A stretch of DNA of 5,576 nt from Burkholderiales bacterium (lineage in GTDB: Bacteria; Pseudomonadota; Gammaproteobacteria; Burkholderiales; Burkholderiaceae), in contig CANFNO010000227.1 in assembly GCA_947447845.1 (NCBI GenBank), positions 1 to 5,576 on the forward strand, read 5' to 3'. The notes beneath the pieces are model-generated. The model saw only the letters and a list, made by a program, of their open reading frames with translations. It did not search any database and was not told the DNA's origin. Below, piece by piece: positions 1-2,793 of this stretch (positions are counted from its first letter, which is position 1; the number at the start of each line of letters is the position of its first letter). Position numbers and translations under genes: made by a program.

Positions 1-593
1 CCCAGAACCATGTAGGGAATGTGCGCTTCAGCAAGAAAGGTCCGCATGATTTCGCGCGGGTGTGCGAACGCGCTCAGGCTAATGACTGCACGCAAATCGG
101 GCCGCCGAGTGGCACATAGAAGTGCAGCGCCGGCACCTACCGAATGGCCCATGACCGCAAGTCGTTTGGGGTCTACCGAGGGTTGCCGACTCAACCAATC
201 CAGACCGGCCTCAATATCCTCTGCAAAACGGAGTAGAGAGGTAAAGGCCGCGTCGTCACTTTGGCCGTGGCAACGGGCATCCAGAAGCAACACAGAAAAG
301 CCTGCCGCGTGCAACGGCGCCAGTGCCGGTAGCATCAAACTGGCGTTGGCACCCCAGCCGTGCATCACGACAACAGCAGGGCCAAGCGAGCGGTCGGAGA
401 CCGGAACAAACCAAGCAAAGAGTGTCTTGTTGTCCGCTGTAGGCAGTCGTATTTCGTGGGCGTTCAATCCCAAATCTGCCGGTGTTTGTTGATGCGCTAA
501 TCGGGGCGCACGCAGTCCATGCAAAATCAATGCGTGAGCCGCACCTCGCAGCACCAAGATGCTGGTCACAATGATGATGCCGACAAGTAGCAT
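1..593 (-). CDS. Membrane-anchored alpha/beta hydrolase, C-terminus cut off by window edge
   Basis: Seen: 197 codons from the ATG at 593 are open to the window edge. Residues 1-15 are almost entirely hydrophobic and look like a signal anchor. The alpha/beta-hydrolase core follows: the oxyanion-hole motif HGWGAN at 78-83, strand and loop LLLDARCHGQSD at 102-113, and the nucleophile elbow GHSVGAG at 149-155 with Ser151 as the likely catalytic serine. The catalytic Asp and His would lie beyond the window. Family knowledge: proteins with this layout are serine hydrolases (esterase, lipase or dipeptidyl-peptidase-like); the substrate cannot be told from sequence. Start choice: the frame is closed by a TAG just inside the end of the globin gene, and this is the first ATG after it. 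No clear Shine-Dalgarno precedes it, so a non-ATG start slightly upstream is possible. It begins 28 bases after the globin stop, so it is probably co-transcribed. Its link to respiration is unknown. Confidence 0.85.
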   Translation of the reverse strand, partial: MLLVGIIIVTSILVLRGAAHALILHGLRAPRLAHQQTPADLGLNAHEIRLPTADNKTLFAWFVPVSDRSLGPAVVVMHGWGANASLMLPALAPLHAAGFSVLLLDARCHGQSDDAAFTSLLRFAEDIEAGLDWLSRQPSVDPKRLAVMGHSVGAGAALLCATRRPDLRAVISLSAFAHPREIMRTFLAEAHIPYMVL

Positions 594-621: not shown

Positions 622-1035
622 TTACGCAGCGCAATTGTGGCTTCCGTCGGTGTTGACTAAATGGTTGGCCATTTGGGCAAAGGTGTGAATGAGCTGGTCA
701 CGCAGTGCAATATCAGCCACCTGCTCGGTAAGCGCCTGTGTCATGCACAGCATCCATTCATCACGCACCACCGGACCCACGGCATACGGTGCATGGCGCA
801 TGCGCAATCGGGGGTGTCCTTTCTTGGCAATAAAGAGTGCGGGGCCACCAAACCAGCCTGACAAGTATTCAAACAAGCCTGTAGCGCTGCCGGATAAGCT
901 TTCAGGGTGCAACTGCCGAGCGTTGTAGGCCTCTGGTAACTCATCCATAAGTTCATAAAAACGATGCACAAGGGTGAGAACACCGGTTTCGCCGCCTAAT
1001 TGGTCGTATGGACTTGATCTAGTGTGTGTGGTCAT
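622..1035 (-). CDS. Group II truncated haemoglobin (2/2 globin, trHbO type)
   Basis: A small cytoplasmic haem protein of 137 residues, full length for the family. Seen: the opening YDQLGGETGV (10-19); HRFYELMD (24-31), where Tyr27 fits the B10 distal tyrosine; FEYLSGWFGGP (55-65), the group II CD-E signature; RMRHAPY (78-84), with His81 as proximal F8 haem ligand; and DEW (92-94), with Trp94 at G8, the tryptophan that marks group II. Family knowledge: such globins bind O2 tightly and are linked to O2 delivery, NO or peroxide chemistry. No reductase domain is fused to it. The ATG overlaps the TGA of the small flavoprotein remnant in an ATGA arrangement, and no good Shine-Dalgarno is visible, so translation may depend on coupling to upstream reading. 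Sitting downstream of the bd oxidase genes, it plausibly serves microaerobic or NO-stress physiology; this is inference. Confidence 0.93.
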   Translation of the reverse strand: MTTHTRSSPYDQLGGETGVLTLVHRFYELMDELPEAYNARQLHPESLSGSATGLFEYLSGWFGGPALFIAKKGHPRLRMRHAPYAVGPVVRDEWMLCMTQALTEQVADIALRDQLIHTFAQMANHLVNTDGSHNCAA

Positions 1036-1112
1036 CGGTAATTTCTATGGTGCGCCGTGGACAGTGCGCCAAAACCCGCGCCTATTACAGTGATGTTTTG
1101 CACAGCATTCAT
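1032..1112 (-). pseudogene. Remnant of an FAD/NAD(P)-dependent oxidoreductase, start and stop retained
   Basis: Seen: a 26-codon frame whose ATG (1112-1110) overlaps the TGA of the MBL gene as ATGA and whose own TGA (1034-1032) overlaps the ATG of the globin gene in the same way. Residues 7-20 read ITVIGAGFGALSTA: a beta strand followed by GxGxxG and a small-residue helix, the classic N-terminal dinucleotide-binding motif of flavoproteins such as sulfide:quinone reductase-like and other NAD(P)/FAD oxidoreductases. After it only six residues (HHRNYR) remain before the stop. Inference: a full-length flavoprotein gene once lay between the MBL and globin genes and lost nearly all of its interior, leaving both junctions intact. 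A real microprotein or an assembly deletion are alternatives. Which flavoprotein it was cannot be decided from 20 residues; sulfide:quinone reductase-like is favoured by the neighbouring persulfide dioxygenase-type gene. Confidence 0.6.
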
Positions 1113-1762
1113 CGTTGGGTATTCTTATTGTGGGCATTCCACAATGGTTTATCTGGAAGGCTTCGCATAGAGGCCAGAAATTCGTCACGGGAGCAGCCTG
1201 TAAAGGATGGATTCCAGCGCCTCTGGTCCATGATCGTGCTGACCGTGCGCAGATGCTGTGCGTGACCAGAAAACAAAAGTGTTTCGTTGGGGAATTTAAA
1301 AAGTCGTTGGGTAATGCTTTCCCATAATTGCGCAGGTGCTGCGGCAAATGGTTGGTCTGGGCATTCCATTGTGTTCAGCAATCCGCCACAAAATAGCCGG
1401 TCGCGCCAGGCAAAGCTAAGACAAGTTGCGGTGTGACCCGGAGTGGACCAAACTCCAAGGGCCTCGTTACCAAATGCTAAGGATGCGCCATCGTCAGGCC
1501 GGTATGCGCGTAGCTGTTCGTCACCCTGTATCAGCGGCGCCCCCAGTTGGGCCAAATTCTGAAATTCTTCCGAGTGCAGGTGGTCATGGTGATGGGTCCT
1601 CAAAACCCACTTCAATTGCAGGTCATGCTCTGCCAGCAAAGCAGAAAGAACGTCGAGGTCGCGGCTGTGAGGATCAATCAGGACTGCTTCTTTGGCGTGC
1701 ACATCGGCGAGCAGATAGGTCAACTCACCGCTGAATTCGTCATGCAACATGCGGAAGTACAT
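1109..1762 (-). CDS. MBL-fold protein of the ETHE1/persulfide dioxygenase type, altered metal site
   Basis: 217 residues, near the usual family length. Seen: the N-terminus matches ETHE1-type proteins (FR at 3-4, TYLLAD at 15-20, EAVLIDP at 25-31). The first metal motif reads THHHDH at 56-61, one residue shorter than the family's THxHxDH. STPGHTATC (106-114) supplies the second-shell histidine, His110. The site that normally reads F-T-G-D reads FCGG at 124-127, so the metal-ligand Asp appears to be Gly127. SGHAQH (165-170) holds the third histidine, His167, followed by TVSTI (173-177) and WNP (183-185), which match the family's C-terminal region. Family knowledge: intact relatives oxidise glutathione persulfide to sulfite with one iron held by two His and one Asp. 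Inference: this copy may be inactive, bind metal differently or have a new role. It starts one base after the ybgE stop with no clear Shine-Dalgarno, and its TGA overlaps the next small frame. The family call is strong; the activity is doubtful. Confidence 0.85.
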   Translation of the reverse strand: MYFRMLHDEFSGELTYLLADVHAKEAVLIDPHSRDLDVLSALLAEHDLQLKWVLRTHHHDHLHSEEFQNLAQLGAPLIQGDEQLRAYRPDDGASLAFGNEALGVWSTPGHTATCLSFAWRDRLFCGGLLNTMECPDQPFAAAPAQLWESITQRLFKFPNETLLFSGHAQHLRTVSTIMDQRRWNPSFTGCSRDEFLASMRSLPDKPLWNAHNKNTQR

Positions 1763-1763
1763 A

Positions 1764-2057
1764 TCAGGCAGCCCAACGCAAGCCTACCGCCAGCAGCAGG
1801 CCGCCCGCGCAAGACCAACCGGAAAACAATAGCTTCCATCCGACTGCACGCGGCACAAAACCTACCCCACGCACTAATCCAGCACTCATGGCCCAAAAAA
1901 GCGCAAGGATAAAACCATGGTCGACGCTGCCGTTGTGACGTGCGAGAAGCAGGGGATAGATAGTGCCTGCCAGCATGATGGCAAGTGCAACGAACAGACT
2001 GGGAAAGTTCATGGCGCTTGCAGCAGGCGTCGTGGCAACTGCGTCACTTGATTTCAC
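1764..2057 (-). CDS. ybgE: Cyd operon protein YbgE
   Basis: A 97-residue inner-membrane protein, the same length I recall for E. coli YbgE. Seen: three hydrophobic stretches at roughly 18-38, 46-66 and 74-93. The middle region carries the family pattern: His47-Gly48, Trp55-Ala56, and AGLVRGVGFVPR at 59-70, which lines up with the HG...WA..AG..HGVGF.P pattern of the E. coli protein. Family knowledge: ybgE is a standard downstream gene of proteobacterial cyd operons; its exact function is not established. The start is GTG, two bases after the cydX stop, supported by AGGA nine bases upstream; a later ATG at codon 16 would shorten the poorly conserved N-terminus and cannot be excluded. The following MBL gene starts one base after its stop, so the two are almost certainly on one transcript. 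Confidence 0.88.
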   Translation of the reverse strand: MKSSDAVATTPAASAMNFPSLFVALAIMLAGTIYPLLLARHNGSVDHGFILALFWAMSAGLVRGVGFVPRAVGWKLLFSGWSCAGGLLLAVGLRWAA

Positions 2058-2059
2058 GG

Positions 2060-2173
2060 CTACTTGTCCTTTTTCGCGGCTGCACGTGCCTCTTCATTCT
2101 CGCCCCACATCGCATTCAAAATTGCCAGCAAGACGGCAAAGCCGACGCCAAGAATCCAAGCAAAGTACCACAT
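2060..2173 (-). CDS. cydX: Cytochrome bd oxidase small subunit CydX
   Basis: A 37-residue single-pass membrane peptide, the same length as E. coli CydX. Seen: the nearly invariant opening MWYFAWILG, one hydrophobic helix through about residue 21, then a short charged tail rich in Glu, Ala and Lys. The conserved Trp6 and Glu25 are both in place. Family knowledge: CydX packs against CydA and is needed for stable, active bd oxidase. AGGA lies six bases before the ATG, an ideal spacing. It is 20 bases after the Rieske stop, whereas in most cyd operons it follows cydB directly; the Rieske gene therefore sits inside the normal cydB-cydX junction. The family assignment is secure from the N-terminus alone. 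Confidence 0.96.
   Translation of the reverse strand: MWYFAWILGVGFAVLLAILNAMWGENEEARAAAKKDK
2067..2070 (-). promoter_or_regulatory. Ribosome binding site of ybgE (GTG start)
   Basis: AGGA on the minus strand, inside the last codons of cydX and nine bases before the GTG at 2057. It is the main support for the GTG start over the ATG fifteen codons later. Confidence 0.55.
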
Positions 2174-2193: not shown

Positions 2194-2793
2194 TCAGGCT
2201 GTGTTGTCTTCACCGATCAGCAGTTTGCTGGCGGTGAGGTATTTGTGAGGCGGCACTTCTAGATTGGTGGGTGCCGGTTTGTTCTTGAAGACCCTGCCTG
2301 CCAGGTCAAACGTGGAGCCATGGCATGGACAGAAAAAGCCGCCGGACCAGTCAGCACCCACACTGGGGTTGTTACTGCCCTTGGCAACAGAATTGGGGGA
2401 GCAGCCCAGGTGGGTGCAAATGCCCACAGCGACCAAGTATTCGGGATTGATAGAGCGGGTGGCGTTTTGGGCATAGGCCGGTTGTTGCTCACGCTCCGAT
2501 TCGGGGTCCACCAATTGAGGACCCAAAGTGGTCAGCCCTGCCAGCATCTCAGGAGTTCGGCGCAATATCCAGACGGGTTTGCCACGCCATTCCACCATTT
2601 TGGTTTCGCCAGGTGCCAAACCGCTGATATCCACCTCCACACTGGAGCCCATGGCACGGGCCCGCTCACTCGGTGCAAAGCTGGAAACAAATGGCACGGC
2701 AGTAGCTGCAATAGCAACTCCAGCCAGAGTGCCGGTCATCAGCACCCATTTGCGGCGCTCTTCGTCTTGTTCGGGCGGGTTAGTAAGCTGCAT
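2194..2793 (-). CDS. petA: Rieske iron-sulfur protein, bc1-complex type (ubiquinol-cytochrome c reductase subunit)
   Basis: 199 residues. Seen: a twin-arginine start (ERRKWVLMTG, 12-21) leading into a hydrophobic anchor (17-40) that ends in VPFVSSFAPSERARA (33-47), the flexible hinge region; then the soluble domain with KPVWILRRTPEML (72-84), cluster motif one CTHLGCSP (126-133) and cluster motif two CPCHGSTFDLAGR (155-167). Cys126, His128, Cys155 and His158 should hold the [2Fe-2S] cluster and Cys131-Cys157 the disulfide. NKPAPTNLEVPPH (171-183) is the usual C-terminal region. Family knowledge: this protein passes electrons from ubiquinol to cytochrome c1 and normally sits with petB and petC. 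Neither is here. Instead its ATG lies 14 bases inside the end of cydB, implying translational coupling, and cydX follows after 20 bases. No key residue is missing. It may be a second Rieske isoform for a bc1 complex encoded elsewhere or have a bd-linked role; both are inference. Confidence 0.95.
   Translation of the reverse strand: MQLTNPPEQDEERRKWVLMTGTLAGVAIAATAVPFVSSFAPSERARAMGSSVEVDISGLAPGETKMVEWRGKPVWILRRTPEMLAGLTTLGPQLVDPESEREQQPAYAQNATRSINPEYLVAVGICTHLGCSPNSVAKGSNNPSVGADWSGGFFCPCHGSTFDLAGRVFKNKPAPTNLEVPPHKYLTASKLLIGEDNTA

Follow-up and report, generated by a model that had tools for sequence, protein, structure and literature searches.

A 26-codon open reading frame (positions 1032-1112, minus strand, translation MNAVQNITVIGAGFGALSTAHHRNYR followed by a stop), lying between the genes for an MBL-fold protein and a truncated globin, is in all likelihood what is left of a gene of about 381 codons for a sulfide:quinone oxidoreductase (SQR)-like FAD/NAD(P) flavoprotein, after one in-frame deletion of about 1,065 nucleotides in this lineage. 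This frame, referred to below as the stump, very probably consists of the joined start and end of the flavin-enzyme gene, because in relatives the complete gene occupies this place. Its interpretation as a real gene remnant, left by an ordinary evolutionary event and unusually well preserved, is well supported; it is not a new kind of system. The features of the window, that is, the whole stretch of DNA analysed (5,576 nucleotides), are as follows.

1032-1112, minus strand: the very probable remnant of the SQR-like flavoprotein gene (comprising its start codon, about 20 codons of the N-terminus, the last 4-6 codons and stop)
1052-1112, minus strand: probable 5' segment of the deleted gene, from the start codon up to and including the dinucleotide-binding loop GAGFGALST, assigned by the profile and the breakpoint scan
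1032-1051, minus strand: putative 3' segment of the deleted gene, with the last codons, the stop and the overlap with the globin start (moderate evidence)
1109-1112, minus strand: ATGA overlap (4 nucleotides) of the MBL stop and the stump start, also present between MBL and the intact flavoprotein gene in locus L003
1032-1035, minus strand: ATGA overlap (4 nucleotides) of the stump stop and the globin start, also present between the intact flavoprotein and globin genes in genomes G278, G212 and G384
1109-1762, minus strand: MBL-fold protein, ETHE1/glyoxalase-II-like, the upstream partner
622-1035, minus strand: truncated (2-on-2) globin, the downstream partner (Pfam Bac_globin, 114.5 bits; PDB 2xyk, a 2-on-2 hemoglobin, 1.2e-32)
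3-593, minus strand: alpha/beta hydrolase, following the globin and cut by the window end
1764-2057, minus strand: YbgE
2060-2173, minus strand: small open reading frame, which we take to be CydX-like
2194-2793, minus strand: Rieske iron-sulfur protein gene, between cydB and ybgE
past the Rieske gene, minus strand: CydB (presumed from its place) and CydA

The first-pass annotation of this DNA had described a 26-codon frame with an FAD/NAD-binding start between the MBL and globin genes, overlapping each of them as ATGA, and both observations hold. The family assignment of the N-terminus comes from a profile of flavoprotein residues 1-40, constructed from 157 rows (120 proteins from databases plus 37 copies from the loci, some of them repeated). 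It was searched against 10,441 peptides of 20 or more amino acids in the six-frame translations of the window and of loci L001-L113. The stump peptide scored 34.1 bits (E=7.1e-9), above the top non-member, a paralogous flavoprotein (21.3 bits); the 46 rows that outscore it are all frames of family members, many of which are in the profile and match by construction. When intact N-terminal fragments were trimmed to equal length, 16 of 119 scored no higher than the stump (38 of the 157 rows having been dropped because they are without GxGFG), and the stump N-terminus is therefore not visibly decayed. Among the 202 flavoprotein members that passed a motif filter, out of 240 fetched, the distance from the start to GxGFG is most commonly the 10 residues seen in the stump (113 members), and 19 match ITVIGAGFGALSTA at 13 of its 14 positions. 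The stump thus carries the N-terminal nucleotide-binding signature of the family (ITVIGAGFGALST, 10 residues from start to motif) and is placed between MBL and globin on the same strand, as are the flavoprotein genes of G278, G212, G256 and G040 and the broken one of G377. With 26 codons versus 381 in G278, and with the complete catalytic domain absent, it is classed as a remnant rather than as a member. On this sequence evidence, the N-terminal motif is well beyond chance.

An MBL scan of the genome collection yielded seven loci, in two of which (L003, L007) the MBL gene is followed by a flavoprotein gene sharing this N-terminal motif. With the L003 flavoprotein as query, 42 of 399 genomes of one family contained a match at E <= 1e-80 (for most genomes the best four candidates were scored), and MBL searches gave 23 of the 399 family genomes at E <= 1e-50 and 8 of 87 genomes of one genus at E <= 1e-40, a total of 30 distinct genomes, with G278 in both searches. 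In the stretches read, which for several genomes cover about 1.5 kb on each side only, the flavoprotein gene follows MBL in six of these 30 (G278, G212, G127, G256, G040 and, broken, G377), in five of them (not G127) with the globin gene next, and globin directly follows MBL in three (G454, G321, G062). Neither arrangement is found in the stretches read from the other 21, among which another gene separates MBL and globin in G218 and G419, and globin precedes MBL in G350, G426 and G463. With six of 30 carrying the flavoprotein nearby, most genomes do not have this operon form even when the MBL gene is present.

The best match to the window is the G278 locus (L074), which reads cydA-cydB-Rieske-ybgE-MBL-flavoprotein-globin in the order and strand of the window, with identities of 87% for CydA, 83% for CydB, 71% for Rieske, 57% for YbgE, 59% for MBL and 73% for globin. 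It contains intact both the ancestral order (cyd genes, MBL, flavoprotein, globin) and the gene whose internal deletion the first-pass annotation had proposed. The G278 flavoprotein has 381 codons, starts with MHSPLKISIIGAGFGALSS, ends in YLRKYR-stop and overlaps the globin start as ATGA (flavoprotein tail and globin start, CTCAGGAAATACCGATGACGACC; the corresponding stretch of the window is CATAGAAATTACCGATGACCACA); the same overlap is found in G212 and G384, and the order MBL-flavoprotein-globin recurs, with longer spacers, in G212, G256 and G040. The upstream overlap is present in L003, where MBL spans 5001-5654 and the flavoprotein starts at 5651; in G278 the two genes are 8 nucleotides apart, with no ATGA overlap there. 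Each of the two overlaps has a counterpart in relatives, but no single relative among the loci compared has both together. In the genomes closest by CydA (G218, G321 and G454; 91-92%, G321 over 100 residues) the gene is absent at the locus, and no very close intact copy was seen; G321, G062 and G218 also have no whole-genome match to the L003 flavoprotein query at E <= 1e-80.

At its other end, where the family tail is Y-L-R-x-Y-R-stop, the stump terminates in HHRNYR-stop, compared with R[K/Q]YR-stop in intact relatives, the common element being R-x-Y-R-stop; an NYR ending occurs in 0 of 202 flavoprotein members. Of the 14 nucleotides before the globin ATG of the window, ten agree with a flavoprotein tail from G278, G212 or G384; the random P is 8e-4, weakening to 0.03 with AGGA taken as given. 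Shuffling with local alignment gave P values of 0.01 against G278, 0.09 against G212 and 0.31 against G384. In the ranking of 39 rows by this match, the three intact overlaps score 14, G321 (listed twice) 12 and the window 10; G218, which has no flavoprotein there, equals the window (10/14), and L088 and L082, controls without an upstream flavoprotein, reach 9/14, as does G419. By these comparisons the C-terminal match, which extends over few codons, is only moderately significant, and the expectation that an intact relative would match the stump at both ends is borne out for the N-terminus, whereas the last codons only resemble each other. Tail remnants in G218, G419 and G454 are not claimed, the similarity there being weak or fitting an ordinary ribosome-binding site. 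The best-scoring breakpoint, from a scan against G278/L074 and L075, falls after nucleotide 61 of the open reading frame, and 1,065 nucleotides are missing from the window gene by comparison with G278, and 1,056 by comparison with G212, in frame.

We infer that a single internal deletion created the stump and spared the start, the stop and both ATGA junctions, such that a ribosome finishing MBL could restart on the stump and then on globin. The flavoprotein function would then be gone from this locus, with globin expression possibly spared, and the stump peptide, without a complete nucleotide-binding fold, would probably be inert. In most studies the highest coupling efficiency is reported for spacings of -4 to +3 nucleotides (PMC12548453); the stump keeps the -4 nucleotide spacing at both ends. 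Polarity was not used as a cause of the in-frame outcome, since translation in either shifted frame would likewise end close to the globin ATG, 14 nucleotides after or 12 nucleotides before it, and this outcome therefore need not be selected. The closest known cases are deletion-derived remnants and internal-deletion pseudogenes of bacteria, among them the deletion-born fusions of PMC12803068, where coding pieces once apart are likewise brought together by a deletion to give a short new frame; unlike those fusions, the stump has two pieces from one gene and preserves the start, the stop and both ATGA overlaps. Internal deletions in one gene (mngB) are also mentioned there and were left out of that screen (PMC12803068). 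Among the titles and abstract beginnings listed there was no publication on this locus, a statement confined to those records and not a wider claim that it is unpublished. The case shows that raw sequence is enough to recognise a two-ended gene fossil, which comparison with the corresponding locus of relatives can then verify.

In addition to the deletion, the 26-codon frame might be kept as a functional relay (a leader minicistron) that couples translation of MBL to that of globin, an elaboration we regard as rather unlikely. In this reading the stump would have been retained for passing ribosomes from MBL to globin, and the globin's own ribosome-binding site, formerly in the last codons of the flavoprotein gene, would have eroded; the probability of this is similarly low. 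Retention of both ATGA overlaps and the in-frame deletion would suit such a role, as would the predicted anti-SD pairing at the window globin start, which at -0.1 kcal/mol (versus -4.3 to -6.1 in G278, G212 and G384) is so weak that the window globin may depend on coupling; the pairing predicted at the stump start is -1.5 kcal/mol. However, the energies of the relatives are no better than random sequence can give (a median of -3.1, with the best fifth at -5.8), and the predicted difference at the globin starts is suggestive only. Moreover, the N-terminal profile finds no other such stump in loci L001-L133, and an in-frame outcome has a chance of 1 in 3 without selection.

The absence of visible decay in the stump would also be expected of an artificial or very recent join, and an assembly collapse or strain mixture, with the intact gene still present and the contig joining its ends or showing a minority deletion strain, would explain it; we consider this quite improbable. 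In the intact gene of G278 and of G212, the first and last 130 nucleotides have no exact stretch longer than 7 nucleotides in common, so that an assembler would be without an obvious repeat for joining the gene ends. Furthermore, the tail in relatives contains an AGG that may belong to the ribosome-binding site of globin; the window has AGA instead, a hint that some time has passed since the loss. The flavoprotein gene is missing in some relatives too. That the open reading frame arose by chance, its Rossmann-like motif having nothing to do with a lost gene, is scarcely credible and was rejected on family profile and location: 26-codon frames are common, GxGxxG motifs are short and the C-terminal match would not by itself be enough to reject this reading, but the N-terminal match is family-specific (E=7e-9) and falls in an interval where relatives carry that family.

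Damage to the same gene, as proposed for the window, is also observed elsewhere. In G377 (L121), the flavoprotein between MBL and globin has 308 codons and runs from ITVLG straight into DGGRTV; it is 73 codons shorter than in G256, in frame, with the nucleotide-binding loop removed by a deletion that differs from that of the window, and at the ends of this deletion CTGGrCG is repeated in the intact G256 gene (read by eye). In G321 (L115), where the flavoprotein is absent, 12 of the 14 nucleotides before globin match the flavoprotein tail (random P 1.5e-5, or 6e-4 with AGGA given; uncorrected shuffle P 0.0015 against G212, 0.0015 against G384 and 0.065 against G278). The flavoprotein is absent in G062 (L118) as well, and there the 40 nucleotides before globin resemble the flavoprotein-globin spacer of G377, with 0 of 2000 shuffles as good (uncorrected P against other spacers, 0.036 for G256 and 0.069 for G040). 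All P values for these genomes are uncorrected for multiple comparisons, and any single one of these cases could reflect an assembly fault. Where a relative shows no trace of the gene, a loss is not distinguished from its never having been there. A CydA/CydB tree places the window close to G218 and to G321 at low support values (29 to 66), and for this reason no loss count was based on it. Taken together, the operon of cyd oxidase, MBL, SQR-like flavoprotein and globin genes appears to have undergone more than one loss of the flavoprotein, and such losses form a small natural set for asking how operons coupled by ATGA overlaps cope when a gene in the middle disappears.

With regard to the lost enzyme, the best PDB matches of an intact relative are SQRs (3hyv, 1e-17), and many flavoprotein members are named sulfide:quinone oxidoreductase by JGI. 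In SQRs the cysteine before GPxYEF is catalytic. In contrast to 3hyv, L074 has an arginine aligned with this residue, and the site reads RG in 240 of 240 fetched members (a count that leaves out the unrelated P0361), so that the redox-active cysteine pair is not found; a C-terminal cysteine pattern is present in 194 of the 240 and a TPCEG pattern in 237. The relatives also differ from SQRs in reaching no NCBIfam cut-off. True SQR identity was accordingly not accepted, one catalytic cysteine being missing, and the enzyme is best described as SQR-like without that cysteine. The reconstruction in the first-pass annotation is correct in the order of the genes and in the type of enzyme, with this correction to the latter.

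Alignments of the MBL partner with 9rhq, 4ysb and the ETHE1 persulfide dioxygenase 4chl cover most of its length, and it keeps a THHHDH motif. However, where persulfide dioxygenases have TGDALL, with an aspartate that is a metal ligand, the window protein has CGGLL, with glycine in place of the aspartate; among the best 120 of 866 MBL relatives the site is Gly in 115, Ser in 2, Asp in 2 and not matched in 1. The MBL relatives P0001-P0006 are 81-94% identical to the window protein, with P0001 at 94%. The MBL protein, taken at first to be of dioxygenase type, may thus not be a dioxygenase, though some sources name its relatives sulfur dioxygenase. The E. coli bd oxidases are H2S-insensitive (PMC8657789), which makes a sulfide-related role of the operon plausible but unproven.

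Several neighbouring genes also recur among the relatives. The Rieske gene sits inside the quinol oxidase operon in the window and likewise in relatives such as G278 and G454, and an alpha/beta hydrolase gene follows globin in relatives as well, for example in G454 (71%) and G419 (72%). In six loci (L042, L043, L044, L045, L048 and L050), a gene with a KIYPRSVSG-type start, presumably resembling CcoG, follows MBL, where others have the flavoprotein.
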